From positions 186,001 to 250,000 of the forward strand of contig OZ005697.1 of NCBI GenBank assembly GCA_963930775.1: a DNA stretch of 64,000 bases, written 5' to 3'. Source of the DNA: Cliona cf. orientalis. Its lineage: Eukaryota > Porifera > Demospongiae > Clionaida > Clionaidae. The notes under the pieces were generated by a model. That model was not told the DNA's origin. It saw only the letters and a program-made list of their open reading frames with translations, and made no database searches. Shown piece after piece: positions 25,260-64,000 of the stretch (positions are counted from its first letter, which is position 1; each line of letters opens with the position of its first letter). The position numbers and the translations under genes are program-made.

Positions 25260-28200
25260 TCAATAATAATTACCATGTTCAGGTGCAGGGGCTGTCCCCT
25301 CAACTGGTCTGCGACCTCGTCTTGGTGTCCTTTGGCGTCTCCTTGGGAAGAAGCTGAGCATTGATCTTCTTTGTTTTCTTGGAGCTATTATATACTCTGA
25401 TGCTGCCTGCTCTCTTCTCATTTGAGCCGCCTCTTCTTTCTTGACCAGCTCTCTCAGGAAGATCTTTTTGGCCTGCTCCCATATCCGCTCTCCAACCGAC
25501 CTCACCTCAGCCTTTTGAGCCTAAAAATGATTAACAAACAATGATGATGTTGTCACCTTGACCTAAAGGCTCCAAGTGATCGTGTAGAGGTACGCTCCTT
25601 ACCTCAGTGAGTTCAGGTTTTGTTTCTTGCTGTCGTCCATTTGTCTCTCCCTCTTTCTCTTTTTCACTCTCTCCCCTCTCTTTCTGAGTATCCTAAATTT
25701 AAAGGATTAGGACACCCTCTGAGCATGGCTCACACACTCAGCTAGCGGTGGCCTTACCTCTATCAAAAGTCTTTGTCCATCATCTGCTGCTTGAGATTTG
25801 ACCTTTGTGCTCACATCACTCTTTCTTTGCTCCTGCATGAATAAAAGTTAACATTCTATTAATATTCCTGTCTGTCACCTCCAGTTGTCCTCCAGGCTAA
25901 CCTCTGCTAGCTCAGTCTTCACTTCCTCTTCCTGCCTCGCTTCACTCACTTCCTGCTCTGGACTGATGACCTTTGAACCATCGTGTTGGGTGTACCGTAG
26001 CAGTATGTCACACACGTCTTGGTGGCCCCCCTCAGACTGAGCCATCCTCAGCGCTGTTAGACCACTCTGAAAGTGTGTATGAGTTTGTGTGGCGAATAAT
26101 AATTATATTATGCTGTATGGTCCATATACCACTCCCACACACAAATTAATAGTACATATACATCAAATCAACCACTCCTAATTAAACTCCACATCACATA
26201 ACATACATTGCTTTTAATGTCGACAGCTGCCCCATGCTCCAGTAGTAACTCCACAATTTCCAAATGTCCTTGATTCACAGCAAAATGCAGGGGGGTCCAT
26301 CCGTTCTATAAAATGGGAACATCAGTTGAGTAAGTCATGTGACCCTCAGTCCACAATAGGGAGCCCTGGAGTTGACATGTTGGCTACCTGGTCCTGTAGG
26401 TTGAGTTGCGGTGTCTTCTCTATCAACACCTTCAGGGTCTCAGTGTGCCCGCCCACACTAGCCAGGTGAACCGCTGACTGACCTTCCTGGAATGCCATCA
26501 CATCACCATGGAGACCAGCATGATACTACCATGACCACATGTTGGTATATACCTTATTTTGGTAGTCGAGAGTTGCCCTGTGGTCCAGTAGTACCTTCGC
26601 TGTCTCCGCTCGTCCGTTCTCACAAGCCACGCCCAAAAGAGTATTACCCTGCTCCTCCTGTAGTTAATTAAGGTGAAATTATTATTATTAGTTACATACA
26701 CAGGCAATCATCTCACATCAACTATGAGATTCACAGGAACTGCATACTCCAGCAGAACTGACACAACTTCACTAAATCCTTGTTCACTGGCACCATGGAG
26801 TAATTCTTTCCACACCTAATAATGATTACTTCAATATTTTTATTATCATGTCAGTTCTCCTCACTTTGTTTTCAAAGTCCATAGTTGCCCCGTTCTCCAA
26901 CAGGAACCTGGTGATATTAGCATATCCACGATCAACTGCATAAGCTAGAGCAGTCACATCATACTGCATGAAGGCATAAACATTAGACCACCAATCTCAC
27001 CTCTGTCAGGATCAACAACTCAATCACTTCAACTTTCACGTACAATTTAATAATACGATGTGTGGACATTCCACGGTTTTGCATCTTAGTGTACATCTCA
27101 CCTTATCAGCTAGATTCACTTGAGCTCTGTATTCCAGTAACACTGCCACTATCTCCTGGTGACCTTCAGCACTTGCTAACATAAGGGCTGACCACCTAGT
27201 CTATAAGAAGTGAGATAACAGCAAACTAGAGCTCTGTAGAGCACATACCCCATGCGCTCTGTAGCCTGGGTGCGAGGCTAAGTATTGCAACACTCTGCAG
27301 CAGTTTTATGACTTGACAACCCTTTCCAACATTGACCTTGAGCATGCGCAGTCACATCAGCATACTATTATGCTAAAAGAGTGGGTGTGGTCAATAAACC
27401 ACAGGCATGCTGAATAGAAAATGCACAATTTGTAGCACTAGTAAGCCTTTTTGAGCAATTCGAAACGCGTATAAACCAGTTTTTCACCGATATCTACTGA
27501 TTGGTTGTGCTTACAGCTCGCACAGATGCCTAGAATGCGAGATCTGGCAATTTTTGTGCCGACGACAATGACAACAACGACAGACAGACAGATTGCTGTA
27601 CCCCTTGCGCATGCGCGTGGGGTAATGATGATCATTCAAAGTGTATGTGCATGTTGAAGATCCCTCACCTCCTCACAGAGGTCAACATTAGCCCCATGTT
27701 CCAGTAGTACTCTAGCTATGGCAGTGGAGCCAAATTGACACGCATTCATCAGAGGGGTCCCCTCCTCCTGAGTCAAGATAATTTAATATTATTGTGTTAG
27801 TGCAATACAAAGATTACATTGACACAAAACAGTGGGTGTTCAATGCAGTCTGAGAGCCCTAAACCAGGTATGTACCAGCTAGCTTGGTAACAGACAGATC
27901 ACACACTCACATAAAACACCTACCGTAACGAGGGTTACACCAAGGGTTAATAATTAAGGCAGGGATTGATATCTTGACATAGTTCACATCTTTATGAACT
28001 CTTACATCATCCAATGTGTCAACTTGAGCTCCACATTTCAATAACACCAAAACAGTTGCTGTACTGCCATATTGACTTGCCATATGTAGAGCTGACCATC
28101 CATCCTATGAGAGACAATCACCCAATAATATGACAACACTACAACAGGGACCTCACTCATTATAAGTATTACTCACCTTCTTGTCTCGATAGTCAACATT

Positions 28201-28526
28201 AGCTTTGTGTTCCAACAGCAGCTTTGCAATGTCAGCCTGGTCAGTTATACTTGCTCCCATAAGGGGAGTGTGGCCCCAGTCATTCTGTAGTGATGTGTAA
28301 TTATGATACTTTGTGCATTAATTTCTACTGAACAATAATTTCACCAAGCCCGGCTACCTTTGTATTGCAGAAAATTTAATGTTAACTTTTTTAAAGTCAG
28401 TATGTAAATTAATCATTACTAAATTTGTGAACAATTTTTTTGTCAATGAGAGTGGGTGGCAAAATTGGTGAAAATTTTGAATTTCCAGCTGTATCCAGTT
28501 AGTACAGTATTTTCGTAGTGTACAAT

Positions 28527-28568
<42 letters not shown>

Positions 28569-31168
28569 TTTCTTCAATATAAAAATTTTATGCTCGAACT
28601 TTACCCAATTTTTGAATGCAATATTGGCACTACCTCAAACTGCACAGCACACTTAAAACATAAATTATTATGTATAAGTGTGACCAAGAATAAAATTTAA
28701 TAATAAAGAAGAGAAGAGTGTCGAATGCACTATATGCTCCGTGTACAATGTATGCGTCGAATAACGTGACTTCCCGCCTTGCGCACGTGACTAGCCCTAG
28801 GGGCTAATTACTTGATTTTTCTTAGGACTGTGGTGTTCTTTGTGAGTTTTATGTTAGATTCTTCGTAAACGCTCATTTTATATTGTTATCTGATAGTGTT
28901 TTCAGTCAAAATTATGCTCACCTTAGCTTAGACTTGAGGCCACGCCCACAAAGTGCCATTGAATCAAGCACTTTCACTGGTCAATTTTTGAATTCCTGGC
29001 ACATGACTTTCCACATACATCTTACACAGAGCATATAGCGCATTTGATAATATTCTCTTCTCTTCTTTACTATTAATTTTACTCTTGGTATGATAATCTT
29101 CAATGCTGAATATTGGAGTCAATTGTGCCAAATAATAATTATTAGAGGTGCCGAAGTTTTAGAAGAAGATTAATACAGGGCAGTTGAATCAGTACTTCAA
29201 AGTTATCAGTGGTTAATTTAGTGTCTAACTTACATCATTTGCCTCATTCACATTGGCTCCGCCCTCCAATAAATTTTTGACTTGATCAAGATTACCAGCA
29301 AAGCTAGCTCGGAACAGTGGAGTGGAGTCAGTCTGTGAGGGGGGCAGGTGGTATAAGGTCACTGGTGAGTTTATGTACACTTACCATCCACTTCTCACGA
29401 TAGAGGATGAGGCCAAAATTATCACCACCAACACGGTACAGGTCAATGCCGATTATGTTGTGCTGTTGAAAGAACTCGACTGATTTGAAATATGTTGCCC
29501 TGACCTTGTCAATGATGTGTGGTAGTATCAGCCATGTGATCCTTAAGCTTCCCTCCACAATCTTATCCATGACAGCTGTCAGTGGAGGCAGATGAAACTC
29601 CTTCATGAGTGCCCTCCAGAGCTCGTCCACAAACAGCAGTGTTAACTCTGACAGTACGTCTCTCTCTAGTTCTAGTTCTACCGTGAGCTTTTGATAATGG
29701 CTGTTGTACCTCTTTGGTGAAAACATACGGCCAGGTATCTCTTCATGATCCTCCAGCTCATTTAGCTTGACAAAGTCAATGATCCTGGTGGTAGCCTGGA
29801 AGCCAGTCAGTTGGCTCTTGTACTCTGTCACCTGCACTCTTGCTGGGTCATCTTCAGGTAGAAATTCTTTAGCCAATACTTCAAGGAGCTTGCAGTTATC
29901 ATAGCGCCAGAGCCGTGCCTCGGTTATGGCGTCAAAGACCGTGTCAAGATCATCGTCTTTTGGGATGGTGCAGTTGCTCTCACAGAATACAAGCACAAAG
30001 CGTCGCACTTTCTTCACTTGCACCTTGCGTTCTTCCATGGATGACTGTATGTCAAGCACCAAGTGAGAAAAACGATGTTTGATTTCTTTCAAAGCAGTCT
30101 CAGCCATTGCCTGACCTGTATGGAGGTAGATAGATATAAAGGTACACCACCAATGAGTAGTAGGAATATTATACTAGCGTTAATGTTAACACTGTACACA
30201 GTACTACAGTCTACCGGTACGTCAGACTAGGCAATCTACACAGTCACACAGTCGGCCATGGAATGCAGCTTGAGTGGCTGGTATGCATGGGCATAATTTT
30301 GTGTATGGTTTGTGGGAACACTAATATAGTGCATACGTTTCTTGGCTTCCTGCTCCGGGGACTGCGTGAGTGGACGTGGGCCACTCACGATCATGGACTC
30401 TTGCCTGACGTCGGCAGGGATCACGTTCTTTCCTATTGAGGAAGGGATAATGAATGTGATATTAAAGTTATCCCTACAAATCTTGTTCGTATAGTCTTTG
30501 GCACTCCATCCCTACTTTATCCTTCTATTTTATACTTGTTATTTGTTATACTTAGTGTGCAATTATTATGCTTCTCATTTATTTCTGAGGTACAATTCAC
30601 TAGTATCACAGGTCATGGTTGTGACTGGCCTAACGTCTAACCTGGAGTTTCGGACTCATATGTAACGACTGTTCCAGGCTGAGGGGGTGACTCATCAGTC
30701 ACATCAGCTCCTTCCTTCAAGATCTCTACAACGCTCTCAGCAAGGACCATTCTTCCAGCTTTGATGAAGACCTCCATCAGAGCTCTGTAGGTCGCTGCAC
30801 TGCCAAGACGAGACCTCCATTTGCTCAAAGCTTCCCTCCTGCTCGGTAATCAATAATAATTAGTATTAATGATTTGGGAGCTGATGAAATTTACATCAGT
30901 TCTTAGTATAGTCGTACCTCTGAAGCTCAGGATTCCGGGAATTTCTTCCCAAGATATCCTCTCTCTCTACTTCAGTCAGTCCTAGACTATCGCCTATCGT
31001 ACCCTCCCAGTTGATCATCTGTGCCGCGATCCTCCCGAGGTGCTGCGGTATCGTGCCGCCTTGAACATCTTTGTTTTCAAAATCGATCTCTCTGTCCACC
31101 TTCCATCGACTGCTCTCTGGTATCGATACAATTAGCTCTGCCACCTTTATTAAGCTTTGAACAGCCAT
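25260..31168 (-). CDS. Unit 1: Death domain - helical domain - 11 ankyrin repeats (intact)
   Basis: Eighteen exons, all GT-AG and in frame, 954 residues: 31168-30918, 30838-30642, 30432-30337, 30115-29385, 29332-29234, 28284-28177, 28104-28006, 27767-27669, 27200-27102, 26963-26865, 26815-26717, 26657-26559, 26486-26388, 26305-26207, 26066-25902, 25832-25758, 25692-25603, 25520-25260. Exons 1-2 give a type-B Death domain ([39 protein letters not shown]). Exon 4 (243 codons) is an unnamed domain ([40 protein letters not shown]). Exons 5-15 are ankyrin repeats, mostly 33 codons each. Exons 16-17 are charged linker. Exon 18 is a helical plus Arg-rich tail ([16 protein letters not shown]), a possible nuclear signal. 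It is likely a cytosolic or nuclear adaptor whose ankyrin face binds a ligand and whose Death domain recruits partners. No ligand can be named. Confidence 0.85.
27225..27625 (-). mobile_element. MITE copy a (CCCC-GCGC ended family)
   Basis: Inserted between ankyrin exons 8 and 9 of unit 1. Other units read straight from CAGCAAATGATCATTC here. Ends are ACTAGAGCTCTGTAGAGCAC plus ATACCCCATGCGC on one side and GCGCATGCGCGTGGGGTAA on the other. Related copies: 37490-38061, 50821-51310, 52691-53629 (inverted) and 54261-54887. Non-autonomous. Confidence 0.7.
28530..28567. repeat. 38-nt G homopolymer
   Basis: An uninterrupted G run on the + strand (C run in the transcript) in unit 1 intron 5. The flanking intron sequence aligns with unit 5 at 62940-63080, which lacks the run. 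Confidence 0.95.
28568..29233. other. Unit 1 intron 5 remainder
   Basis: AT-rich intron sequence shared with unit 2 (about 36890-37490, 38060-38218) and unit 5 (63110-63651), including TGACTTCCCGCCTTG and AGCCCTAGGGGCTA. No coding content. These parallels allow empty-site comparison for MITEs inserted in unit 2. Confidence 0.6.
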
Positions 31169-31599: not shown

Positions 31600-34500
31600 T
31601 CAATGAGTGTGTTCAGGTGCAGGGGCTCTCCCCACAACTGGTCTGCGACCTCGTCTGGGTCCAATCCTCGAGTACAAGCGATTGAGAAATGATCTTCCTT
31701 GTTTTGGTGGAGGCATTATAAGTTCTACTGTTCCCCGCTCTTTAGCCAGTTGAGCGGCCAACTCCTTCTTTGCTCTCTCTCTGAGTAACACTCTCTTAAT
31801 CCCCTCCCACAACTGCTCACGAACCGATTTCACCTCAGCCTGCTGGGCCTGCAACAAGACACAGCAATGAAGAATCAGCTATAAAGATTTGATGTTCACA
31901 TACAACAGTGTCACTCTTAGTCTTGGCTCTCATTGCGTGCAAGGATCTGGCCACATAAGACTATGTGTCATGGGTGGGGGGGGGGGGGGGGGGGGAGATT
32001 CGTCTATCCACCATTGCACCACTTTTAATTATTATTATTATCCATAGTGCATTATTAAATTTGTTGATTACGAGTAACCACAGGTGTGCTAGTACAGTAC
32101 ACTACAGTTACCCGGCAGTGAATGCATGCAATTTGTTTATAATAATATGCTGTATTGCAAACTTCCGTTATCTTCCCATGCACATGTAGATAAGTCACTG
32201 CACACAAGCAGTGCCTCTCACCTCAGTGAGCTGAGTGGTTGTTTCTTGCTGTTGTTTGTTTGTCTCTCCTTTCTCTTTCCCACTCTCTCTCCTCTCTTTC
32301 TGAGTATCCTAGAGGATTAGGACACCTCTGAGCACAGTCCACACACTCACAGCTAGCAGTTGCCTTACCTCTGCCAGAAGTCTTTGGCCATCGTCTGCCA
32401 CTTGAGACTCGACCTTTGCACTCACGTCACTCTTTCTTTGTTCCTGCATGAATAAGAGTTAACATTCTATTCCTATCTGTCACCTCCAGTTGTCCTCCAG
32501 GCCAACCTCGGCTAGCTCAGTCTTCACTTCCTCTTCCTGCCTGGCCTCACTCACTTCCTGCTCTGGACTGATGACCTTTGAACCATCGTGTTGGGTGTAC
32601 CGTAGCAGTATGTCACACACGTCTTGGTGGCCCCCCTCAGACTGAGCCATCTTCAGCGCTGTTAGACCAGTCTGAAAGTGTGTATGAGTTTGTGTGGCGA
32701 ATAATAATTATATTAATATTATGCTGTATGGTCCATATACCACTCCCACACACAAATTAATAGTACATGTACATTACAGTAGTTAATCGAATACAATGCA
32801 TGATCCAATTTAACGCAATAAATTAGCATTTTACGAATTCTCATGACGTGGAGCGATTGACGACCTTTACCAGAAAAACGCGCGTTTTTTAAAGATTGAA
32901 ATTATTTTTTTTCCATGTGTAGTATTAGATTAAGTACAGTAAATCAACCACTCCTAATTAAACTCCGCATCGCATAACATACGTTGCTTTTAATGTCGAC
33001 AGCTGCCCCATGCTCCAGAAGTAACTTGATAGTTTCCAAGTGACTTTGATTCACAGCGAAATGGAGCGGGGTCCATCCGTTCTATAAAAATGGAATATCA
33101 GTTGAGTAAGTCATGTGACCCTCGGTCCACAATAGGGAGCCCTGGAGTTGATATGTTAGCTACCTGGTCTTGCAGGTTGAGTTGCGGTGTCTTCTCTATC
33201 AACACCTTCAGGGTCTCAGTGTGCCCGCCCACACTAGCCAGGTGAACCGCTGACTGACCTTTCTGGAATGCCACCACATGTCACCATGGAGACCAGCATG
33301 ATACTACCATGACCACATGTTGGTATATACCTTATTTTGGTAGTCGAGAGTTGCCCTGTGGTCCAGTAATACCTTCGCTGTCTCCGCTCGTCCGTTCTCA
33401 CAAGCCACGCCCAAAAGAGTATTACCCTGCTCCTCCTGTAGTTAATTAAGGTGAAATTAGTTACATACACAGGCAATCATCTCACATCGACTATGAGATT
33501 CACAGGAGCTGCATACTCCAGCAGAACTAACACAACTTCACTAAAGCCTTCTTCACTGGCATCGTGAAGTGATTCTTTCCAAAACTAAACATTATTAAAA
33601 ATTTTAAGAACATAAGATTAACATTATTATTATCAGTTCTTCACACTTTGTCTTCAAAGTCCATAGTTGCCCCATTTTCCAACAGGAACCTGGTAACGTT
33701 AGCAAATCCCCACTGGACTGCCCAAGTTAGAGCAGTCCAATCATCCTGCATGAAGGCATAAACATTAGACCACCAATCTCACCTCTGTCAGGATCAACAA
33801 CTCAATCACTTCAACCTTCACTTATATTTATGATGTGTGGACATATCTCAGTTTTGCATCTTAGTGTACCTCTTACCTTACTAACTAGGTTCACTTGAGC
33901 TCTGTATTCCAGTAACACTGCCACTGTATCCTGGCGACCTCCAACACTTGCATACATAAGAGCTGACTGCCCACTCTATAAGGAGTGAGAGCACAGCAAA
34001 TGATCATTCAAAGTGTGTGTGCATGTTGAAGATCCCTCACATCATTACAGTGGTCAACACTAGCCCCATGTTCCAGTAGTACTCTGGCTGTGGCAGTGTA
34101 GCCAAGCATACATGCAGACATCAGAGGAGTCTCCTCAGCCTGAGTAAAGGTAATAATTAATACCGTAAATCGCGAATATTTCGATGTTAAAATATTTTCG
34201 GACAGCATGGTTTGTGCGAAATTAAACGCACGAATTACATGCGCAATACTAACGATAATGCGGTACAGGGTCGTTTGTCCAAAAATTATTTAACGCGAAA
34301 AATCATCGCATGAAATATTTTAGACATGAAATATTCGCAATTTACGGTATGTTGGCAATTCTTGTACCTGTTCTATCAAGGTTTTAATTCTCTAACCAAT
34401 CAGAAACACTTTGCAGTTATTACAAGCCATCTTAACCAAACAATGCTTTGTGATCTATGATCTATTAGTATTGTGTACTGGTAAGATGATATCTAGAATT

Positions 34501-37500
34501 TTGTTTGGGGGGGGGATGTATCCCGGGGCAACCCCCTCTAACTGGGCCACTGCCCTGTAGCCCCGCCCCCCTCCATCCTTCCTAAGGCCTGACTGCCAGG
34601 ACACACAATGCAGGGAAGACTGAGGCTGGAGTTGACATCTTAATTTAACACAGCTCAAATATCATCTTTATGAACTCTTACATCATTCAATATGTCAACT
34701 TGAGCTCTATATTCCAACAACACCAAAACAGTTGCTGTGCTGCTATACAGACTTGCCCAATGTAGAGCTGATTCTCCCTCCTATGAGAGACAACCATACA
34801 ATAATAATATGACAACACTACAACAACAGGGCTCTCACTCATGTTGTATGTATATAAAGTACTACTCACCTTCTTGTCTCGATAGTCAACATTAGCTTTG
34901 TGTTCCAACAGCAGCTTTGCAATGTCAGCCTGGTCAGTCATACTCGCTCCTATAAGGGGAGTGTAGCCCAAGGCATTCTGCAATGATAATATACCGTATA
35001 GCCAGAAATATTGGCGGGAATTAAATTTGGTGGTTGAGCCCAAAATTGCTATATATTGCAAGAATATTAGAATTGGCGGTTCGGTACGGGATCGCCATAC
35101 ATATAATATTATATACAAGTATAAAAATAACAATAAAATTGAAGAATGTAGTAGGGATGGCAGGATCAAAAAGTACACAAACAAGAGATAATCGTATCTA
35201 CTATACATCCCTATGCTTGCTTTTCTCGACTACCGTAGATCTGGAAATTTTCGTGTAAAGAAACTTTTGTATGATAAATTTTCGTGTTAAAAATTTTTCG
35301 TAGGAACGACCCCTTACCGCATTAGCGTTAATAGTGCATGCTAATTTTCATAGCCGCAATCGACTACGAAAATATTTTTACAACGAAAATTTCCAGATTT
35401 ACGGTATTATGCACCTATTAATGTCGACGTGTTTGTTGAGTGTGGTATGTGGGAGATATTCAGGTTGTTCCCTAGTTGTCAGTTTTGATTCAATCGCATT
35501 CTTACTGGTTATTTTTGTACCCCTCAAAAAACAAGCGTACGATTATCTCTTGTTTGTGTACTTTTTGATCCTGCCATCCCTACTTCATTCTTCAATTATT
35601 TTTATACTTGTATATAGATCAAGTTATGATCTGTACGTTACCGCTCCTCGAGCCTTATCGGAGCCTTCGTATGATAGTATGATATCTATCATCGATCCAG
35701 CGGAGCACTAGTGCTGCACGCGCTAGCGAATAGCTCGCCTCCTATGCCTAGCGCCGCTTCTCGAGCCTTGCACCTTCATATCCATGATTGATCCAGCGCG
35801 GCCAGACGCTGTCACATAACTTCACCATGACAACACATTTCAAGCATGCACATTATATCACAAAATGGCGTTATCAGACACACCCAATCGTTAATGCGCC
35901 GTACACACCCACTATTACGTAACTGTCAAGATAATGCCAAACTAGCGTGCTACTGCACTGCGCGCTACAAAATAGAGTGGATTTATATGAGAAGTAAGGT
36001 GAGAGGTCCAGACACTGTCACAGTCTTGAGTTAGCCCTGGAAATGAGAAAGAAAGAAAGAAAGAAAGAAGAAAGAATGAGAAATGGGCATTTTTTTGAAC
36101 ATCTGATTCTGGCATATACAATTAATTGATTTGATGAATTAATGATCTTGGTCTTGTTAGATAGATAATTTGTTGGAGATTCTGATTTTCACACTTAGAA
36201 ATTTCACAAAACTACTTATTTTGAGATATTAATTTTGGGTATTTGTAATGTATTACATATATGGCATATCCGGGCCATCCCTACTTATAGAGTCTACCGA
36301 CTATATAATATATATTAGTTAGACACTGTTTAGGAGGTTTCTATGTGATTTAGAAGACCGAAGGACTCTATATAGAATCCCGAGCAAAGCAAGGGTTCTA
36401 TGAGAGCCCTGAGGTCTTCTAAATCACATAGAAACCTCCTAAACAGTGTCACAAGTTTAGATCACATAGCTTTGTATCGCTAGAGCCAGAGGGCAAATCT
36501 TGTAGGTGACTATGAGAAACTTGTAGGTGACTATGAGATATAGATACCTGTCAGTAGCCAATCAAATTGCAGTATTTGTTATGATCTAAGATATTATGCG
36601 AGTAGGAAATTTTGGCGGATTTTAATTTGGCGGTTGTAATATAGACCACCAAACGGCCAAATTTAATTCCCCGCCAAATTTTCCGGCTATACGGTAAATA
36701 ATTATGATACATTGTGCATTAATTTTAACTAAACAATAATTTCATCAAGCCTGGCTACCCTTGTATTGCAGAAAATTTAATATTCATCATAAAAACTTAT
36801 GAACAATTATGCAATATTAAATTTTCTGCAATACAAGGGTAGCCAGGCTTGATGAAATTATTGTTTAGTTAAAATTAATGCACAATATAACATACATGTA
36901 TAAGTATGACCAAGAATAAAATTTAATAATAGAGAAGAGAAGAGTGTTGAATACACTATATGCTCCATGTAAAACGTATGCATCAAGTAACGTGACTTCC
37001 CGCCTTGTGCACGTGATTAGCCCTAGGGGGTACCGTCTAGCCGGAAAGTTTGGCAGGGAATTAAATTTGGCAGTTTGGCGGTCTATTATTACAACCGCCA
37101 AATTAAAATCTGCCAAAAATTTCCTACTCGCATATATACGTATGGCGATCCCGTACCGAACCGCCAAATTTAAATCCGCCAATATTCTTTTAATAGCGGT
37201 TTTGGGTTCAACCGCCAAATTTAATGCCCGCCAATATTTCCGGCTATACGGTATCTTAGGACTATGGCATTCTTCGTGAGTTTTATGCTACATTCTTCAT
37301 AAATGCTCATTATATATTAGTGCTTTCAGTCAAATTGCGCTCACCTTAGCTTAGACTCAAGGCCATGCCTGCAGAGTGACATAGAGTCAAGCACTCTCAT
37401 TGGTCAATTTTTGAATTCCTGGCATGTGACGTTCGGCATACATCTTACACAGAGAATATAGCGCATTTGACATTCTCTTCTCTTCTTTATTACCCCACAC

Positions 37501-51300: not shown

Positions 51301-54300
51301 AGAAAGTGTCATGAAGCAGGCTGACAAAGAAGGCTGCTTTAGGCGGCCCAAGTAGCTAGTGATGAGACTCTTCCGTTTAGGGAGAAAACCAAGTTCTAAA
51401 TTTTATTGTTGACAGCAGCTACCTGGGATAATTTTATGATCTGTACGTTACTGCGCTGACCGCTCCTTGAGCCTTAACCTTGCGCCTTCGTATGTCAGAT
51501 ATCTATGATCGATCCAGCGGAGCACTAGACTAAGTGCTGCACACGCTAGCGAGTAGCTTGCCTATGTCTAGCGCCTTACCACTCCTCGAGCCTTGCGCCT
51601 TCATATCCATGATCGATCCATTATATCACAAAATGGCGTATCAGACACACCCAGTTGTCAATGCGCCATACACACCCATTATTACGTAACTGTCGAGATA
51701 ATGCCAAACTAGCGTGCCACTGCATTGCGCGTACAAAATAGAGTGGATTTATATGAGAAGTAAGGTGAGCGGTCCAGACAGTTTTGAGTTAGCCCTGGAT
51801 ATGAGAAAGAAAGAAAGATTGACAATTTGCACTTTTTTCCAAAAAACAAAAAGAGCTGGTTCAGCCGTACCTGATTGTTTCCATGGATGTTTTGGGGCGT
51901 GATAGATAGGTAATCTGGTGCAGATTATGAATATAAAAGTTAAATTAAAATCTTAGAAATTTATTTGCTTTGAGATATTTGATGTTTTATAATGAACCCT
52001 TGACCATCTCCCCAGTAGCTGCATAGTGTAATGGTGCATGTGGTAAAAGGTCGTCAATAGAATGCGTACACATCGATCGATGCTCGCCCCAGAAATCATG
52101 GAGATGGCGTCTAAGATCGACTCTCAGCCTTGACAGCGACAAGTTTCGATGCTTCAATCACAGAGACGAACTCGACAGTACAGTATTCCTTCCGAACTTC
52201 AGGTTGGTCACGCTGCTGCAGTCGCGCGCAGGACAGCCCCTTATGACAATGATGCGTGCTATATATAGCGCAAGGCTAGCTTTATTTATCCACGGCATTA
52301 CGTGAGCCAAGAAAACACGTGAAGTTCAACCAACAGTACTTCTCAGAGAAAGTAGCGCTCAGCTTGTAATGTATTCGCTGGATACACGCGTAAGATACTC
52401 TACATATTTACTGATTTTCAAGTCCCAGAAAGGCTCCAGCGAGGCCCTGAATTTTCTCATAATTACCTCATAGATTACACCATAGGTTTCATCATAATTA
52501 CACCATAATTACCTCATAACCACAGAAAAGTAAATTGCTACTGGGGAGATAATGTATTACATATATGGCATATCCTGGTCATCCCTACTTATAGAGTCTA
52601 CCGACTCGATGATTATTATGCTAATAATTCTTGTACCTGTTCTACTTGTACCAAAGTTATAACATTCTGATCAATCAGATTGCTACGATAAAGCAGAGCT
52701 CTGTAGAGCACATACCTCACACGCACATTGCGTAATCTATAGGTGAATTTTATGTGTATTGCTAAAATTTTGTGAATTAATGGAAATTCTGGTGGGTTGC
52801 AAAGATCTCAGTGATCCGTGGTCAGCCAAAATCAGTGGCAGATCCAGGATTTCTAGAAGGGGGGTTCTGAAATACTATTGTGCGCAAAGTGCGCGCAAAT
52901 TTTTATAAGCCACGCCCACTTTTGAGCCAACCCACGCCCATTTCGCTCGTTCTTGAGATAAACTACGAGCCCTACCTGTCCAATGGATCTGTTTTCGAAC
53001 GAATTTCTTCTAAAGCATGCATTCTAAGGTGAGCCATAGCAGCAGTTTTCTTAGTTCTGTACCATTCCATTTAGCCTAATATCAGTATACTTTAGTGCTA
53101 GGTGCAGCCCAAAGGGGGGTTCCTGTGCACCCTGGATTCCCCTCTGGATCCGCCACTGAAAATACCACTGATTCTCTCTCTGCACCAGATCTAGACTAGG
53201 AAGGTATGGACTGCTACTACCTACATTTATTTATAGCTATCTTACATCGGCTCCATATGGCTTCACATTTCAGTCTGCAGATAGCTACATGTAGCAGCCA
53301 AACAGTATGTCATGAGCATTATTTAGAACATTTCAACGATCTTTTTACCAGTTCATTCTCGGTACTTAGTTGTGCACATGAGCAGGAAGTATAATATGGC
53401 ACTGTTGATAGGCGTGGCTATAATGGCCAACAAAAAGGCACTATTTGTGACACTCGTGGATCGTGTCCCTCGATTTGAAACACACTGAAGCCAGTTTTTG
53501 CCAAATTTGACTGATTCGTTGTGCTTACGAGTCGCTCAGATGCCTGGGTCTCGAGATAAGGTGATTTTTGTGCTCACAACGACAACGATACTACTGATTA
53601 CTTTACCCCCTTGCGCATGCGCGCGGGGTAAAAATATACTATACCATCAGATCTATGAGGAGGAGACTGCACTGAAGACATAACGACTTTATCAAAATTA
53701 TCAGAGCAATTTGTGACTAATTTTATTTAGCATTGTGCAAGCCCATGATAATATTAGTTTCAAGTTTTATAATTTTGGTAGGTTGTATCCCAGGGCACCC
53801 CCCCCCCTGTAAATGGATCACTGCCCTGTAGCCACCCTCTCAACCCTCCTAAGGGCTGACTGCCGAAATAAATAATGCAGGGAGAATAATTAAACTGCAA
53901 AGTAGAGGTTTTACATCTTAATTTAACACTTAACTCTTACATCATCCAATATGTCAATTTGACCTCCATATTCCAGTAACACCAAAACAGTTGCTTTGCT
54001 GCCACGTACACTTGCCCGATGTAGGGCTGACCGTCCATCCTATGAGAGACAACCACCCAATAATTATGATAATACTGCAACACTGGGCTCACTTGTGTTA
54101 TAATATATGTATGTATGTATGTAAAGTACTACTCACCTCTTTATCTCGATAGTCAACATTAGCTTTGTGTTCCAACAGCAGCTTTGCAATGACAGCCTGG
54201 CCAGTCAAACTTGCTCCCAACAGGGGAGTGTAGCCAAAGGCATTCTGCAGTGATGTTTAATTACCCCTTGCGCGCATGCGCAAGGGGTAAAGTAATCGGT

Positions 54301-57300
54301 CGTGTCGTTATTGTTGTGAGCACAAACATCGCCATATCTCGAGATGTAGGCATCTAAGTGACTCGTAAGCACAACGAATCAATCGAATTCGGCGAAAAAC
54401 TGGCTTCAGTGTGCATCAAATTGAGGGATACGGTCCACGAGCGTCACAAATAGTGCCTTTTTGTTGGCTAACGTAGCCCCGCCTATCGACAGTGCCTACT
54501 CAATGCATAATGCATGCCCATTGTGTTTTCTACTCATGCACAACTGAGTAGCCAAGAATATGAGTGGTAAAGATCGTTGAAATTAATAATGCTCATGACA
54601 TCTATAGTCTATCCGCATCCGCTGACGGGGCTGAAATCTGCAGCCCTATGGAACCAAATCATAATGTAAAACAGCTATACTATTGGAAGTTATCAGTTCA
54701 TATCTCCTAGTAGTCTAGATCTGGTACAGAAAGAGTGCTTTTTGTCACCGGGACCTCCAATAGTACATTTAAGCAGCATTTCCACTAACTTTCTGAAGTT
54801 GATAAAATTATAGCCATGCACACAAAACCAACCCTATAGATTGCGCAATGTGCGCATGGGGTATGTGCTCCACAGAGCTCTAGTTACACTATGTTGTATG
54901 GCTGAAAATTTTGTCAGATACTTTAGCACAGTCCAATCAGTTATCTATTGACATTAGACTTACATCATTTATCTCGTTCACATTGGCTCCGCCCTCCAAC
55001 AAGTTCTTGACTTCATCAATGTTACCAGCAAAGCTAGCTCGGAACAGTGGAGTGGAGCCAGTCTGTGAGGGGGGAGAGGGGGGAGGGGGGTAGTATAAGG
55101 TCACTGGTGAGTTTATGTATAGGTTACATCACGAGGTGGAGGTCTCTACGGGATTTATATACCAAGGGCCAGAGGTCCGAGGCTGTGTAAATCACGTAGA
55201 GACCAAACCGAGTGATGTAACCGACTTGTACCATGGGCTACGTGGTCCTGACAATGTATCTACGGCCTAGCAACAACAGCGCCGGCCATAAAAGGCTTGA
55301 GCGCGTACTTAGCAACAGTTCAAACCATCGTCGTCGATCGAGTCGACGCTGGACATCGATGCATAGTGAGCCGACGCCGTTTTCTGTCCAACTCGAGCTT
55401 CTTCCTTGACATTCAGAACCACAATACTATCGTCGCTGCATACAAAACACCGGTCATGTCATCGCTGACTTGATTTCAACTCGAGGCAGTCAGAGTGCAG
55501 CTCAGTTTTTACTACTGCTGACTTGGCAAATCATTCGCTCCACCCATTCAATTAACGCAGTAAGACCTGCCCACCAATCATCTGCATACAGTACTCTGCA
55601 TAGCACTAGAGCTCTGTACTTTATCTCTTTCACTAACAAAAGATACTGTAACTACCCTAGCAGGCATGATCATGTAAAATTTCATAGCCTCAGAGGTAGG
55701 TGTCTATCTAGATAGACACCTCCTAGGAGGTGTCTATTTTATTTAGACACCTATAAATCAATCTGATTGGTCAGAATGTTACAACCATGGTACAAGTGCA
55801 CTTACCATCCACTCCTCATCATAGAGGCCGAGGCCAGGATCATCATCACCACCATCACCATACAGGTCAATCCTGATTATGTTGTGCTGTTGAAAGAACT
55901 CGACTGATTTGAAATAGGTTGCCCTGATCTTGTCAATGATGTGTGGTAGTATCAGCCATGTGATCCTTAAGCTTCCCTCCACAATCTTATCCATGACAGC
56001 TGTCAGTGGAGGCAGATGAAACTCCTTCATGAGTGCCCTCCATAGCTCGTCCACAAACAGCAGTGTTAACTCTGACAGCACGTCTCTCTCTAGTTCTAGT
56101 TCTACCATGAGCTTTTGATAATGGCTGTTGTACCTCTTTGGTGAGAAATAACAATCGGGTATCTCTTCACGATCCTCCAGCTCATTTAGCTTGACAAAGT
56201 CAATGATCCTGGTGGTAGCCTGGAAGCCAGTCAGTTGGCTCTTGTATTCAGTCACCTCCACTCTTGCTGGGTCATCTTCAGGTAGAAATTCTTCAGCCAA
56301 TTCTTCAAGGATCCCATAGTGGTCATAGCGCCAGAGCCGTGCCTTTTTTATGGCATCAAAGACTGTGTCAAGATCATTGTCTTTTGGGATGCTGCAGTTA
56401 TCGTCACAGAATTCAACCAGAAAGCGTCGGACTTTCTTTACTTGCACCTTTCGTTCTTCCATGGATGACTGTATATCAAGCACCAAGTGGGAAAAACGGT
56501 GTTTGATTTTTCTCAGAGCAGTCTCAGCCATTGCCTGACCTGTATGGAGGTAGATAGATATAAAGGTACATCACCAATGAGGAATAACACAGTGGCCGAG
56601 AGGGACAATGCCGCAGCGGCCCAAGCCGCTATGGGCCACTCAAAAGCTGCCGTTCGGCTGCGGCTGACCACTGTGGTTCAGCCACGCCCCGCCAAAATTT
56701 TTAAAATCGGTATTTAGTTTGTGGCTCAGCTGCGCCCACCAATTTTTTAAAATCATACTCCAGTTTTCGAGTGGTTAACTAGACGGTACGGTATCATTAC
56801 CCCATGCGCATACGTTTGTCAGTCTATCTCTGTCATTGTCCACACGATATGCATAGGCATCTGGGCACAGTGGGTTATAACGGAGATCAACATAGCAAAG
56901 AAACAGACTTGGTCTTATTTGGATTCGAACGACACTGGCTACTGTACAGGGATGCTAGTCACACATATTAACCGCGTGCTTTCTTCCCATGCACACGCAA
57001 TACCAACTTACTAGACCACGCCCACCGCAGTGTAATACGAACTCTTTCGATCTCTGCTGAGCACAAGAATGATCACCACTGAAAAAGAAAGGGGGGGATA
57101 TGTCATATAAACGTTTGTCCTCTAAAATTAATTTTAATAGCTAAATAGTAGTATGAATGTAGAAACACTGTGTGTTGGCTTATATTTAGGCTAAGCAACA
57201 AGATGCCGGGTGACTTCAACTGTATATTTGATCAAAGCTTTTCATCATAAGTGATGTGACTCATCAGGATAAGAAAATAGAGAAATCACAAAAGCTTAAA

Positions 57301-58887
57301 TAAAAGGCACAAGGGCTCAAAAAAATGAGGGCTCGAAAAATGAGACGAAAGTCTCAATGAAATGAGACAAAAAACAAACAGCAGCAGAAAACAGACTGGG
57401 CTACCTAGTTAATTAAATTAATTTTAATAGCTAGTAGTCTTCTAGTCTCAATACTCCCATTGCAGCGTTTAGATAAACACATGGAGGGCTGAATCCAGAG
57501 AGAACTCTACGATCTAACTCTAAGACCACACCCAACGTTGTCCAGTTAACCATTCGTAAGAGGCCAGCTGCAGCCGAACAGCAGCCCACGGCAGCTTGGA
57601 CCGCCACAGCAGTGTCCCTCTCGGCCACCGTATGTTAATGTTAACACTGTACACAGTACTACAGTCTACTGGTATGTCAAACTAGGCAATCTACACCTAC
57701 ACAGTCATACACAGTCACACAGGGCAGCTGTGGGATGCAGCTTGAGTGGCTGGCATGGTCATAATTTCAGGTATGGTTTGTGGGAACACTGATCATTATT
57801 AATATTATATATAGCATTATGGTGATTATAGTGCGTACGTTTCTTGGCTTCCTGCTCCGGGGACTGCGTGGGTGGACGTGGGCCACTCACGATCATGGAC
57901 TCTTGCCTGACGTTGGCAGGGATCACGTTCTTTCCTATTGAGGAAGGGCTAATGAATGTGATATTAAAGTTATCCCTACAAATCTTGTTCATGTAGTTTT
58001 TGGCACTCCATCCTTACTTTATCCTTCTACTTTATTTTTATACTTACTATTTGTTATACTTAGTGTGCAATTATTATGCTTCTCATATGTTTCTGAGGTA
58101 CGATTCACTAGTATCACAGGTCATGGTTGTGACTGGTCTAACATCTAACCTGGAGTTTCGGACTCGTGCATAACGACTGTTCCAGGCTGAGGGGGTGACT
58201 CATCAGTCACCTCAGCTCCTTCCTTCAAGATCTCTACAACGCTCTCAGCAAGTTCCATTCTTCCAGCTTTGACGAAGACCTCCATCAGAGCTCTGTAGGT
58301 CGCCGCACTGCCCTGATCCGACTTCCATTTAATCAAAGCTTCCCTCCTGCACGGCAATCAATAATTAGCATTAGTTACTGCTCTCAGCGCTCTTTTGAGG
58401 GTATACATTATTAGATTCGTATAAACTTTTGCCCTTCCTCCTCAATTTACAAAACAATGGCAACACAACGTTTCGCCCTTTGGGCTTCTTTACACCTGAA
58501 GAAGCCCAAAGGGCGAAACGTTGTGTTGCCATTGTTTTGTAAATTGAGGAGGAAGGGCAAAAGTTTATACGAATCTAATAATTAGCAAAAATTTGGGAGC
58601 TGATGACATTTACATCAGTTCTTAGTATAGTCGTACCTCTGAAGCTCAGGTTTCTGGGGATATCTGTCCATGATATCTTTTTTATCTGCGCGAGTCAGTC
58701 CTAGATTATCGCCTATCGTACCCTCCCAGTCGATCATCTGTGCCGCGATCCTCCCGAGGTGCTTATCTATCGTGCCACCTAGAACACCTTTGTTTTCAAA
58801 ATCGATCTCTCTATCCACCTTCCATCGACTGCTCTCTGGTATCGAGACAATTAACTCTGCCACTTTTATTAAGCTTTGAACAGCCAT
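48357..58887 (-). CDS. Unit 4: Death domain - helical domain - 11 ankyrin repeats (one lost splice donor)
   Basis: Exons: 58887-58637, 58346-58150, 57934-57839, 56539-55806, 55062-54964, 54244-54137, 54039-53941, 50427-50329, 50273-50184 (see below), 50049-49951, 49892-49794, 49734-49636, 49561-49463, 49357-49259, 49127-48999, 48935-48861, 48792-48703, 48620-48357; about 941 residues. Type-B Death domain and tail like unit 1 ([18 protein letters not shown]). Exon 4 has one extra Asp codon (DDDPG). At the end of exon 9 the donor AAG/GTAAGA seen in units 1-3 has become AACTTAGATG. A GTTAGT donor 6 nt upstream keeps the frame but drops two residues, and I used it for the model. Exon 15 is shortened by 36 nt, losing part of the acidic linker. 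Introns 3, 4, 5 and 7 are swollen by transposons. Confidence 0.75.
50460..50820. mobile_element. Foldback element in unit 4 intron 7
   Basis: Ends AATGAAGGATGAAGTAGGGA and its complement (TCCCTACTTCATCCTTCAAT), with GGATCAAAAAGTACATAAAC next inside each arm. Relative of 35152-35582 but without the inner MITE, so it shows the pre-insertion state. It is followed directly by a MITE of the CCCC-GCGC family. Confidence 0.7.
50821..51310 (+). mobile_element. MITE copy c (CCCC-GCGC ended family), truncated
   Basis: Starts TTACCCCGCGTGCATGCGC and follows copies b and e through ACTGGCTTCAGTGTGCGTCA and GCTGACGGAGCTGAAATCTG. The GTGCTCTACAGAGCTC end is missing. Confidence 0.6.
51311..52690. other. Transposon-derived filler in unit 4 intron 7
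   Basis: About 51430-52006 parallels 35620-36260 of unit 2 (GATCTGTACGTTAC, TATGAGAAGTAAGGTGAG). This is interrupted by a 543-bp insert, 52007-52549, with ends TCTCCCCAGTAGC and GCTACTGGGGAGA; unit 2 lacks it. No gene seen. Confidence 0.55.
52691..53629 (-). mobile_element. MITE copy d (inverted), hosting a nested element
   Basis: GAGCTCTGTAGAGCACATAC at the left and GCGCATGCGCGCGGGGTAA at the right mark an inverted member of the CCCC-GCGC family. It contains a 326-bp second transposon (52833-53158). Confidence 0.6.
52833..53158. mobile_element. hAT-like MITE with 5-bp flanking repeat
   Basis: Ends CAGTGGCAGATCCAG and its complement CTGGATCCGCCACTG (one mismatch), flanked by AAAAT on both sides. 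326 bp, GC-rich ends, no coding capacity. Confidence 0.75.
54261..54887 (+). mobile_element. MITE copy e (full-length, CCCC-GCGC family)
   Basis: The most complete copy: TTACCCCTTGCGCGCATGCG (a short hairpin) to GTGCTCCACAGAGCTCTAG plus TTA, 627 bp, in unit 4 intron 5. Interior similar to copies b and c. Confidence 0.75.
55125..55797. repeat. Inverted-repeat-rich insert in unit 4 intron 4
   Basis: GGTCTCTACG and CGTAGAGACC form one inverted pair (55141-55205). ACTTGTACCATGG (55228) and CCATGGTACAAGT (55785) form an outer one. A cluster of short palindromes, AGGTGTCTA/TAGACACCT, occurs at 55698-55752. No gene. Probably one or more foldback elements; exact ends uncertain. Confidence 0.55.
56590..57630. 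mobile_element. 1.04-kb non-autonomous transposon in unit 4 intron 3
   Basis: Ends CAGTGGCCGAGAGGGACA and the complement TGTCCCTCTCGGCCACCG, with inverted similarity continuing about 60 bp inwards (GCCGTTCGGCTGCGGCTG and CAGCTGCAGCCGAACAGC). The interior is AT-rich, without transposase. Confidence 0.7.
58407..58582. repeat. Perfect foldback, 84-bp arms
   Basis: Arms 58407-58490 and 58499-58582 are exact complements around the 8-nt loop TACACCTG. It lies in unit 4 intron 1. Units 1 and 2 lack it, so it is an insertion specific to this copy. Confidence 0.9.
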
Positions 58888-59678: not shown

Positions 59679-62600
59679 TCAATGAATGCGTTCAGGTGCA
59701 GGGGCTCTCCCCACAACTGGTCTGCGACCTCGTCTGGGTCCAATCCTCGAGTACAAGCGATTGAGAAAAGAAATTCCTTGTTTTGGTGGAGTCATTATAA
59801 GTTCTGATGTTCCATGTTCTTTAGCCAGTTGAGCGGCCAACTCCTTCTTTGCTCTTTCTCTAAGGAACACTCTCTTAATCCCCTCCCACAGCTGCTCACG
59901 AACCGACTTCACCTCAGCCTGCTGGGCCTGCAACAAGACGCAGCAATTTTTAATGTTTTTACCCTTAAGTTGTTATATTGTTTGTTGATTACCGAGTAAC
60001 CACAGGTGTGCTTGTACACTACACTGCATATACTACAGCTACCCGGCAGTGAATGTATGCATACGCTTATTATGTAGACAAGTCACTACACACAAGCAGT
60101 GCCTCTCACCTCAGTGAGCTGAGTGTTTGTTTCTTGCTGTTGTTTGTTCGTCTCTTTCTCTTTCTCACTCTCTCTCCTCTCTTGCTGAGTATCCTAGAGG
60201 ATTAGGACACCTCTGAGCACGGTCCACACACTCAGCTAGTGGTTGATTTACCTCTGCCAGAAGTCTTTGGCCATCATCTGCTGCTGCTTGAGATTCGACC
60301 TTTGCACTCACGTCACTCTTTCTTTGCTCCTGCATGAATAAGAGTTAACATTCTATTCCTGTCTGTCACCTCCAGTTGTCCTCCAGGCCAACCTCTGCTA
60401 GCTCAGTCTTTACTTCCTCTTCCTGCCTGGCCTCACTCACTTCCTGCTCTGGACTGATGACCTTTGAACCATCGTGTTGGGTGTACCGTAGCAGTATGTC
60501 ACACACATCTTGATGGCCCCCCTCAGACTGAGCCATCCTCAGCGCTGTTAGACCAGTCTGAAAGTGTGTATGAGTTTGTGTGGCGAATAATAATTATATT
60601 AATATTATGCTTTATGGTCCATATACCACCCCCACACACAAATTAATAGTACATGTACATTACAGTAGTTAATCGAATACAACGCATGATCCAATTTAAT
60701 GCAATAAATTAGCATTTTATGAATTCTCATAACGTTTATATATGGAGCGATTGACGACCTTTACCAGAAAAACGCGCGTTTTTTAAGATTGAAATTATTT
60801 TTTCCATGCGTAGTATTACATAAATCAACCACTCCTAATTAAACTCCGCATCGCATAACATACGTTGCTTTTAATGTCAACAGCTGCCCCATGCTCCAGT
60901 AGTAACTTGATAGTTTCCAAGTGACTTTGATTCACAGCGAAATGGAGCGGGGTCCATCCGTTCTATAAAAATATGGAATATCAGTTGAGTAAGTCATGTG
61001 ACCCTCGGTCCACAATAGGTAGCCCTGGAGTTGACATGTTAGCTACCTGGTCTTGTAGGTTGAGTTGCGGTGTCTTCTCTATCAACACCTTCAGGGTCTC
61101 AGTGTGCCCGCCCACACTAGCCAGGTGAACCGCTGACTGACCTTTCTGGAATGCCACCATATGTCACCATGGAGACCAGCATGATACTACCATGACCACA
61201 TGTTGGTATATACCTTATTTTGGTAGTCGAGAGTTGCCCCATGGTCCAGTAGTACCTTCGCTGTTTCCGCTCGTCCGTTCTCACAAGCCACGCCCAAAAG
61301 AGTATTACCCTGCTCCTCCTGTAGTTAATTAAGGTGAAATTATTTAATATAGTTACATACACAGGCAATCATCTCACATCAACTATGAGATTCACAGGAG
61401 CTGCATACTCCAGCAGAACTGACACAACTTCACTACAGGCTTGTTCACTGGCAATGTGAAGTGATTCTTTCCAAACCTAGAAAATTTAAAGCATTCATAT
61501 TATTACGATTGTTATCATGTCAGTTCTCCTCACTTCGTCTTCAAAGTCCATAGTTGCCCCGTTCTCCAACAGGAACCTTGCGACGTTCGCATATCCACAA
61601 TCAACTGCCCAAGCTAGAGCAGTCATATCATCCTGCATGAAGGCATAAACATTAGACCACCAATCTCACCTCTGTCAGGATCAACAACTCAATCACTTCA
61701 ACCTTCACTTAACTATGTGTGGACATATCACAGTTCTGCATCTTAGTGTACCTCATACCTTATTAACTAGGTTCACTTGAGCTCTGTATTCCAGTAACAC
61801 TGCCACTATCTCCTGGCGACCATCACCGCTCAGGGTTTCATCTAGCGACAAAAATTTGGGGTGGAAGCACGATAAATGAGTGGGCGTATTTAGCACGCCA
61901 AATTCTTGGGACCTATTTATAGGAGAATTTCTTTATTTCCTCCAGATGGTTTTGGGTAGTTTTTGATCAAAAACAAATGCTAGTGGTTCGATTTGGTGAC
62001 TTATTGTGATATTTTGATGCTTAATTTAATTAAAGTCAAATTCTTAGGGGGGGAAGCTAGGGAGTTTGGGGGGGAAGCTTCCCCCCTGTCCCCCCCACTG
62101 GATGAAACCCTGCCGCTTGCATACATAAGAGCTGACCACCCATTCTATAAGGAGTGAGAGCACAGCAAATGATCATTCAAAGTGTGTGTGAATGTTGAAG
62201 ATCCCTCACCTTTGTACAGCGGTCAACATTAGCCCCATGTTCCAGTAGTGCTCTGACTGTAGCAGTGCAGCCAAATGAACACGCATTCATCAGAGGGGTC
62301 CCCTCAGTCTGAGTCAAGGTAATTTAATATTACTATGCTAGCGCAATACAAAGATCACATTTACACAAAACAGTGGTTGTTCAATGCAGTCTGAGAGCCC
62401 TAAGCCAGGAGGTATGTAGCAGCTAGCTTGGTAACAGTCAGATCACACACTCACATAAAACAACTACCGTAACCCTCATGCATGCACCAAGGGTTAATAA
62501 GGCAGGGGTTGACATCTTAATATAGTTCACATCTTTATGAACACTTACATCATCCGATATATCAACTTGAGCTCCATATTCCAACAACACCAAAACAGTT

Positions 62601-64000
62601 GCTCTGCTGTCACGTGCACTTGCCCAGTGTAGAGCTGATTCTCCACTCTATGAGAGACAACCACACAATAATGATAACAGTACAATAGGGGCATCATTCG
62701 TGTTATGTAAACTACTAATTACCAGTTTATCTCGATAGTCAACATTAGCTTTGTGTTCCAACAGCAGCTTTGCAATGTCAGCCTGGTCAGTCATACTTGC
62801 TCCAATCAGGGGAGTGTAGCCCCAGTCATTCTGCAATGGTGTAATAATTATGATACATTATGCGTTAATTTTATTTTAACTGAGCAATAATTTCACCAAG
62901 CCCGGCTACCTTTGTATTGCAGAAAATTTAATACTAAACTTTTCAAAGGTCAATATGTAATCATTAATAAATTTGTGAACAATTTTTTTGTCAATGAGAG
63001 TGGGTGGCAAAAATCGGTGAAAATTTCAAATTTCCAGCTGTATCCAGTTAGTGTGGCATTTTGGTATAGAGTAGTGTACTCGAACTTTACCCAATTTTTG
63101 GATGCAATACTCAAGCACATTCTATTCCCACTTATAACATGTATAAGTGTGACCAAGAATAATAAAGAAGAGAAGAGTGTTGAATGCACTATATGCTCCG
63201 TGTAAGATGTATGCGTCGAGTATGACTTCCTGCCTTGGGCACGTGACTAGCCCTAGGGGCTATCTTAGGACTGTGACGTTCTTCGTAAGATTTATATGCT
63301 AGATTCTTCATAAACGCTCATTTTATATTAGTGCTTTCAGTCAAAATTGCGCTCACCTTAGCTTAGACTCAAGGCCACGCCCGCAAAGTGCCATTGAATC
63401 GAGCACTCTCATTGGTCAATTTTTGAATTCCTGGCGTATGACTTTCCGCATACATCTTACACGGAGCATATAGCGCATTTGACATTCTCTTCTCTTCTTT
63501 CTTGGTGTGACAATCTTTCAGTGATGAATATTGGAGTCAATTGTGCCAAATAATAATTATTAGAGGTGCCAAAGTTTTAGAAGAAACTTAATATGGAGCA
63601 GTTGAATCAGTACTTCAAAGTTATCAGTGGTTAACTGAGTGGCTAACTTACATCATTTGCCTCATTCACATTGGCTCCACCCTCCAACAAGGTTTTGACT
63701 TGATCAATGTTACCAGCAAAGCTAGCTCGGAACAGTGGAGTGAAGCCAGTCTGTGAGGGGGGAGGGGGGGGTAGTATAAGGTCACTGGTGAGTTTGTGTA
63801 CACTTACCATCCACTCCTCATAATAGAGGTTGAGGCCAGGAGCATCATCACCATCATTATACAGGTCAATGCTGATTATGTTGTGCTGTCGAAAGAACTC
63901 GACTGATTTGAAATACGTTGCCATGATCTTGTCAATGATGTGTGGTAGTATCAGCCATGTGATCCTTAAGCTTCCCTCCACAATCTTATCCATGACAGCT
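59679..64000 (-). CDS. Unit 5: ankyrin/Death-type gene, partial, transposon inside one ankyrin exon
   Basis: The N-terminal exons lie right of the window. Visible exons: >64000-63808 (end of the exon-4 domain), 63750-63652, 62830-62723, 62647-62549, 62308-62210, 62144-61759 (interrupted), 61632-61534, 61476-61378, 61318-61220, 61145-61047, 60962-60864, 60557-60393, 60329-60252, 60193-60110, 59927-59679. All are homologous to units 1-4 and closest to unit 2 (same short tail, same intron 14 insert). The exon encoding [13 protein letters not shown] is split by a 282-bp transposon at 61831-62112, which would end the frame if retained. Removing this phase-0 99-nt repeat by exon skipping would leave the rest in frame with ten repeats. 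Functional status unclear. Confidence 0.75.
61831..62112. mobile_element. MITE inserted in an ankyrin exon of unit 5
   Basis: Ends CAGGGTTTCATCTAG and CTGGATGAAACCCTG (one mismatch), flanked by CCGCT at 61826-61830 and 62113-62117. The rejoined target matches the ankyrin exon of units 2 and 4. 282 bp, no coding capacity. Confidence 0.9.

Follow-up and report, generated by a model that had tools for sequence, protein, structure and literature searches.

The 64,000-nucleotide stretch analysed here (the window) covers positions 186001-250000 of contig C9 in the 217-Mb genome of the demosponge Cliona cf. orientalis. Five tandem genes, U1 to U5, lie on its minus strand, and U5 is truncated at the window edge. 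Each gene encodes, in this order, a Death domain, a single large central exon of ~240 residues, 11 ankyrin exons (A5-A15), and coiled-coil and C-terminal exons. Most of the ankyrin exons are phase-0 cassettes with one repeat per exon, and the gene copies are related as mosaics. Repeats A6-A11 are under positive selection on the concave face of the ankyrin solenoid, and this selection recurs in separate arrays. On balance, we favour the view that these genes encode intracellular recognition proteins with a constant signalling half and an ankyrin binding half.

A typical ankyrin exon comprises 33 codons, the first of which is at repeat position 3 in the numbering of designed ankyrin repeat proteins (DARPins). 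A6 and A12 exceed this length by two or three codons, and A15 extends beyond the repeat and was trimmed to 24 codons. The exon borders are AG/GT in general. Exceptions include A6 and U3 A8, where GT comes one codon later, U6 A7, which starts one codon later, U4 A9, which is without the usual donor, and U5 A9, which is interrupted by an insertion. This insert (window positions 61831-62112, ~282 bases) looks like a miniature inverted-repeat transposable element within a coding exon, with inverted ends CAGGGTTTCATC and GATGAAACCCTG and AGCGG as a possible target duplication. In U1 the spliced frame, which starts at the ATG of the Death domain and runs to where the central exon ends, has 425 codons without a stop and enters A5 in phase 0. 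Three further copies were found. U6 and U7 are on the plus strand at 151 and 157 kb of C9, whereas U8 is on another contig (C2, 3.99 Mb), is broken upstream, and has its central exon in two pieces.

A preliminary description of this DNA, made by eye, held that the differences among the units fall on the same few repeat positions (2, 3, 5, 10, 13, 14, and 17) and that these line the ligand-binding face. The exon-7 and exon-8 strings and the exon-10 residue pairs that it quoted are present as written on the minus strand. We aligned A5-A15 of the eight copies U1-U8 by codon (358 codons), with gaps for U5 A9 from the insertion onward and for the first codon of U6 A7. In pairwise counts, the nonsynonymous divergence (dN) at positions 3, 5, 10, 13, and 14 of A6-A11 is 0.674 and the synonymous divergence (dS) is 0.323. 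The ratio dN/dS (omega) is 0.49 for the rest of A6-A11 and 0.30 for the outer surface. A maximum-likelihood partition model, run with our own code, used the positions randomised in DARPins, which we take to be 2, 3, 5, 13, 14, and 33; the literature consulted confirms only the concave placement of the randomised positions. In this model omega is 4.18 for the DARPin set, 0.81 for the rest of A6-A11, and 0.32 for the other exons, and a face omega of 1 is rejected (twice the log-likelihood difference, 2dl, 117). None of 2000 random 37-codon sets drawn from A6-A11 reached the omega of the DARPin set. With no positions preset, the comparison of models M1a and M2a gives a 2dl of 202 and 20 codons out of 358 with a posterior above 0.95. 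Eighteen of these 20 are at positions 3, 5, 10, 13, and 14, and the remaining two are at positions 1 and 16, both in A8. Surface classes were taken from solved structures (PMC8415598, Table 1, whose position n is n+2 here). The concave class holds 19 of the 20 selected codons but only 90 of all 358 (P = 1.4e-11). Within A6-A11, omega is 4.19 for concave, 0.63 for convex, 0.42 for basal, and 0.69 for core residues. The claim that variation is concentrated at a few sites on the ligand face was therefore borne out for positions 3, 5, 10, 13, and 14, while no codon at position 2 or 17 has a posterior above 0.95. Neither a dN/dS below 1 at the face codons nor an even spread of variation over helix 2 was found.

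With five copies only (U1, U2, U3, U6, and U7) the face omega is 4.72, and giving each exon its own tree yields a summed 2dl of 80.8 at 6 degrees of freedom (df). Simulation on the same tree, with 30 runs each, returned 0.74-1.35 for a true omega of 1 and 3.67-4.48 for an omega of 4.2. As a hold-out we used three arrays elsewhere on this contig (C9:753-773, 870-930, and 984-1004 kb), in which the central domain is ~43-48 % identical. They yielded 101 ankyrin exons, of which 11 had no type, 5 were off-length, and 85 were kept in 8 types. Concave omega is above 1 in seven of the eight exon types (p < 0.05, uncorrected; summed 2dl 164.9, 8 df). Pairwise dN outside the concave face of these arrays is 0.120 for convex, 0.080 for core, and 0.036 for basal residues. 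Another ankyrin family, on contig C7, was used as a control. Six of its C-terminal repeats, compared in three of four fetched copies, have no face excess (face dN 0.070, overall dS 0.161). Elsewhere, ankyrin clusters at C7:2.91-3.22 Mb (L029-L032) and at C2:14.4-14.6 Mb (L002 and L006; few repeats only for the latter cluster) have near-identical helix-2 halves and face-variable first halves.

A5 and A12-A15 behave differently from A6-A11, with an omega of 0.26-0.39 across all surface classes. The preliminary description had stated that A5 and A12-A14 hardly vary. Their variation is indeed low, but around A11-A13 this is partly because the stretch as a whole, exons and introns alike, has diverged little. 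Jukes-Cantor distances are small for the introns after A11, A12, and A13 (0.089, 0.027, and 0.094, with U8 on the other contig included), whereas the introns after A10 and A14 have distances of 0.348 and 0.400. Which copy is closest depends on the exon, and some pairs of copies share an identical A13. We read the similar introns and the shifting nearest copy as probable interlocus exchange. The apparent freezing of A12-A15 would thus be part constraint and part homogenisation. A14 is truly constrained, because its dS is 0.356 and its face is unchanged. The window-type copies lie at roughly equal distances from each other over A5-A11 (dS 0.13-0.24).

The coupling of the ankyrin repeats to a Death domain, also claimed at the outset, was supported. 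In the stretches searched, a Death match lies upstream on the same strand in 22 of the 23 genes examined (one match, in stretch C9d, is in two frames), the exception being a gene on contig C10. A 34-residue plus-strand match in stretch C9b was not counted as a gene. The Death domains are of two types, a two-exon type in the other units and a second type in U3. Those of U2 and U3 are over the Pfam cut-off, that of U1 is slightly below it (E 0.0003; 21.3 bits against 22.6), and those of U4 and U5 are matched by tblastn only. The U3 Death exon is 94 % identical to the Death exon upstream of the neighbouring ROCO gene, and this likeness suggests that a Death exon was exchanged between different gene families. 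The frame of that gene, of COR-A (ROCO) type, lies on the minus strand at window positions 20173-23436, and its C-terminal part matches Death weakly, under the cut-off. Death domains are very numerous in the genome as a whole, and the 150 matches scored, of 1292 candidates, all exceed the Pfam cut-off.

The central exon could not be assigned to a Pfam family. It has 108 matches in the genome, fragments included, and 41 of these, none with stops, were aligned (U5 and U8 were left out). TRADD-N domains have a conserved "uS" motif, a tiny residue followed by Ser (at times Cys), at the beta2-beta3 turn (PMC8195603). The corresponding residues are GS in 39 members, GC in one, and KC in one. By eye, the hydrophobic pattern is beta-alpha-beta-beta-alpha-beta, with the motif between strands. 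A search of the sponge's own genome with the profile PF13820 (NCOA6_TRADD-N) gave one sub-threshold match elsewhere (E 5.55), and PF13820 is absent from the 25 families listed, of 26, for the 41 members at E up to 1. Pfam hits on these members are scattered and none was taken as real; the commonest, Transposase_21, occurs in 12 members (best E 0.00072). A profile of the central domain, compared with solved structures at E up to 10, hit two of them, a lectin (28 residues, E 9.7e-6) and a TLR1/VLR chimera (E 0.15), and both were taken as chance. AlphaFold, given four near-identical window copies, returned an all-helical model with a predicted local distance difference test score of 39, too low for a comparison with the RRM-like two-layer alpha/beta fold of TRADD-N. 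Because the NCOA6 TRADD-N profile had no match and the predicted fold is of low confidence, the domain is labelled TRADD-N-like. Judged by its motif and pattern it looks like TRADD-N, and it is not a proven member. No NACHT or NB-ARC match came from Pfam for the central, Death, or ankyrin exons, the search being limited to these and not extending to introns and unmodelled exons.

Table 1. Positions of the parts of genes U1-U5 in the window (C9 coordinates where marked).
Feature	Position	Strand	Remarks
U1 Death domain, two exons	30642..31168 (31168-30918, 30838-30642)	-	open spliced frame with next exon; Pfam Death
U1 linker exon after Death domain	30432-30337	-	
U1 TRADD-N-like exon	29385..30115	-	uS motif; exon ends EKWM, intron begins gtaagt
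U1 variable ankyrin exons A6-A11	26717..28284	-	A5 = 29332-29234
U1 near-constant ankyrin exons A12-A15	25878..26657	-	
U1 coiled-coil and C-terminal exons	25277..25832	-	tblastn
U2 Death domain, two exons	39615..40140	-	tblastn, 81 and 90 % to U1; Pfam Death E 5.7e-07
U2 TRADD-N-like exon	38377..39099	-	
U2 variable ankyrin exons A6-A11	33486..34977	-	A5 = 38317-38219
U2 near-constant ankyrin exons A12-A15	32483..33435	-	
U2 coiled-coil and C-terminal exons	31608..32443	-	tblastn
U3 Death domain, second type	46217..46510	-	Pfam Death E 3.6e-07
U3 TRADD-N-like exon	44525..45247	-	end set by alignment to other units
U3 variable ankyrin exons A6-A11	42455..43689	-	A5 = 44468-44370
U3 near-constant ankyrin exons A12-A15	41607..42395	-	
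U3 coiled-coil and C-terminal exons	40560..41567	-	tblastn
U4 Death domain, two exons	58148..58887	-	tblastn
U4 TRADD-N-like exon	55806..56531	-	
U4 variable ankyrin exons A6-A11	49794..54244	-	A5 = 55062-54964; A9 without usual GT donor
U4 near-constant ankyrin exons A12-A15	48975..49734	-	
U4 coiled-coil and C-terminal exons	48374..48935	-	tblastn
U5 Death domain, outside window	C9:251665-251137	-	tblastn
U5 TRADD-N-like exon, cut by window edge	63808..64000	-	
U5 variable ankyrin exons A6-A11	61378..62830	-	A5 = 63750-63652; A9 split by insertion
U5 near-constant ankyrin exons A12-A15	60369..61318	-	
U5 coiled-coil and C-terminal exons	59684..60329	-	tblastn

A 680-base stretch that follows the central exon of U4 was considered as a disruption of the gene and rejected, as it is part of the short intron that precedes A5. 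Two long open frames on the plus strand, at 17301-18845 and 47327-47992, lie next to and between the units; they are alike by eye, have several hydrophobic stretches, and have no Pfam match. The same genome encodes a silicatein in which Ser replaces the catalytic Cys of cathepsin (L039, ...GQCGASYAFSAMGALEGA), an active-site motif that makes a demosponge origin almost certain.

Several known systems resemble these genes in part. The likeness to DARPins lies in variable residues 3, 5, 13, and 14 on a constant frame; the sponge genes differ in being natural, in that position 10 is highly variable too, and in having no selected codon at position 2 or 33. Close in domain content are proteins of the sponge Amphimedon that join a Death-like domain, a TRADD-N domain of the NCOA6 clade, and ankyrin repeats inside a 357-protein expansion (PMC8195603). 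They share with the Cliona genes a sponge host, the domain order, the "uS" motif, and a large lineage-specific expansion, and a fast-evolving C-terminus is noted for them as well. In Cliona, too, the Death-like domain is N-terminal and the ankyrin repeats are C-terminal. The differences are that the NCOA6 TRADD-N profile has no match here and that the sections of that paper covered here do not describe site-level selection on the ankyrin face. TRADD-N-linked repeats have been proposed to recognise invaders (PMC8195603). Fungal NLRs with ANK, TPR, or WD repeats, such as Pa_3_8560 of Podospora (PMC4986451), provide a known case of positive selection acting on the concave face of ankyrin repeats. 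There the frame is conserved, the selected sites are concave with one exception, and concerted evolution has been suggested; the sponge genes likewise combine concave positive selection with a conserved frame. However, the fungal proteins have a NACHT or NB-ARC domain and repeats that vary within the gene, whereas the sponge genes have one repeat per exon, a Death domain, and no NTPase domain in the exons tested. NF-kB p105/p100 (Rel, ANK, and Death) also combine ankyrin repeats with a Death domain in a single protein (PMC8260672). The sponge Death domain differs in being N-terminal, and the Pfam matches for the tested exons include no Rel homology domain. In two other sponges, ankyrin and Death-domain genes, not necessarily the same ones, respond to microbial molecules (PMC6208332). 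As judged by titles and abstract openings, with subscription papers mostly outside the scope, the literature searched contained neither an animal family with site-specific selection on the ankyrin face nor exon-per-repeat ankyrin cassettes with such diversification. The preliminary description had called the family a candidate undescribed one. The Amphimedon report goes against this for the domain combination, while site-resolved diversification of the concave face in an animal family built on exon-per-repeat cassettes is apparently new.

How might such proteins work? If they are recognition proteins, the N-terminal Death and TRADD-N-like domains would form the constant signalling half, and the ankyrin solenoid would form the binding half, in which A6-A11 would be the variable paratope and A12-A15 would stay nearly constant. 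The concave groove of A6-A11 would bind varied ligands, such as microbial, parasite, or non-self molecules. Ligand binding would cluster the Death domains and lead to a cell-death or NF-kB-like response. Duplication and interlocus exchange of repeat exons would supply new combinations. A fuller version of this idea, which we put forward tentatively, is that the genes are a germline repertoire of natural DARPin-like receptors with variable and constant halves, whose cassettes are reshuffled by duplication and interlocus exchange under strong diversifying selection and which supply Death/TRADD-N-type signalling with its input in the recognition of microbes or of self and non-self. The binding residues would then sit in the first half of each variable exon, and the frame in the second.

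Several observations weigh against reading the genes as recognition proteins. U5 has a split exon, and U8 is broken. In the 1.5 kb of upstream sequence covered for the C10 gene (L040), neither tblastn nor a Pfam search of the single long frame gave a Death match. Synonymous divergence is itself raised at face codons (0.323, against 0.175 elsewhere in A6-A11), which may be due to multiple hits or local exchange. Gene conversion breaks the single-tree model; the per-exon trees agree nonetheless, but A11 is non-significant on its own tree. Among the hold-out types, T1 is non-significant alone, T2 has an omega of 3.60 outside the face too at a very low dS (0.038), and pairwise counting over the hold-out gives a concave dN of only 0.330 against a dS of 0.269. 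In the C7 family the tandem repeats are face-variable too. Among 48 distinct repeats, chosen by their helix-2 pattern, dN is 0.585 on the face and 0.048 on the outer surface (all-site dS 0.370, face dS 0.546). Face variability is therefore no proof of a Death-domain receptor role.

The chief rival is adaptor specialisation, in which each copy binds a different endogenous protein, for example by wiring Death-domain signalling to its clients, and no foreign ligand is involved. Selection on the binding face indicates changing partners and not the identity of the partner, and the very many Death-domain and ANK matches in the genome fit this proposal. The recurrence of the pattern in several arrays speaks weakly against it, as does the near-equal divergence of the copies, which fits turnover better than a single split into separate roles. 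We regard adaptor specialisation as unlikely, though a serious contender. Ordinary ankyrin turnover would have positions 3, 5, 10, 13, and 14 weakly constrained and drifting on a kept scaffold, and concave positions are reported to be among the most diverse across ankyrin repeats generally (PMC8415598). Yet an omega of 4.2 is beyond neutral drift and already contradicts it. The face dN of A7-A10, about 1.0, exceeds the dS of 0.11-0.30 for their remaining codons, convex positions stay below 1, and the C7 C-terminal repeats have a similar dS without the face excess, which together make drift very improbable. We give equally little credence to a recombination artefact, in which exon exchange among the copies and unseen paralogues mimics positive selection. 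The nearest neighbours that shift by exon, the identical A13 pairs, and the homogenised 3' introns are what it would lead one to expect; but the signal peaks where the copies differ most (A7-A10), tracks structural class and not exon, persists with per-exon trees, and recurs in other arrays. Least probable of all is targeted mutation (somatic or germline hypermutation) of the face codons in place of selection: two- or three-base differences occur in 345 of 826 face-codon pairs and in 150 of 4613 pairs for the remaining A6-A11 codons, and face-codon dS is raised, but the face codons have all four bases at first and second positions with no adenine bias of the diversity-generating-retroelement kind, and adjacent scaffold codons of the same exons change little.

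The genes extend to an animal the diversification of the concave ankyrin face that, among the literature found, is otherwise documented in fungal NLRs. The constant parts can serve as internal controls for tests of binding, expression, and population variation. For sponge intracellular non-self recognition and the policing of symbionts, the finding points to a concrete repertoire in which the likely contact residues are named.

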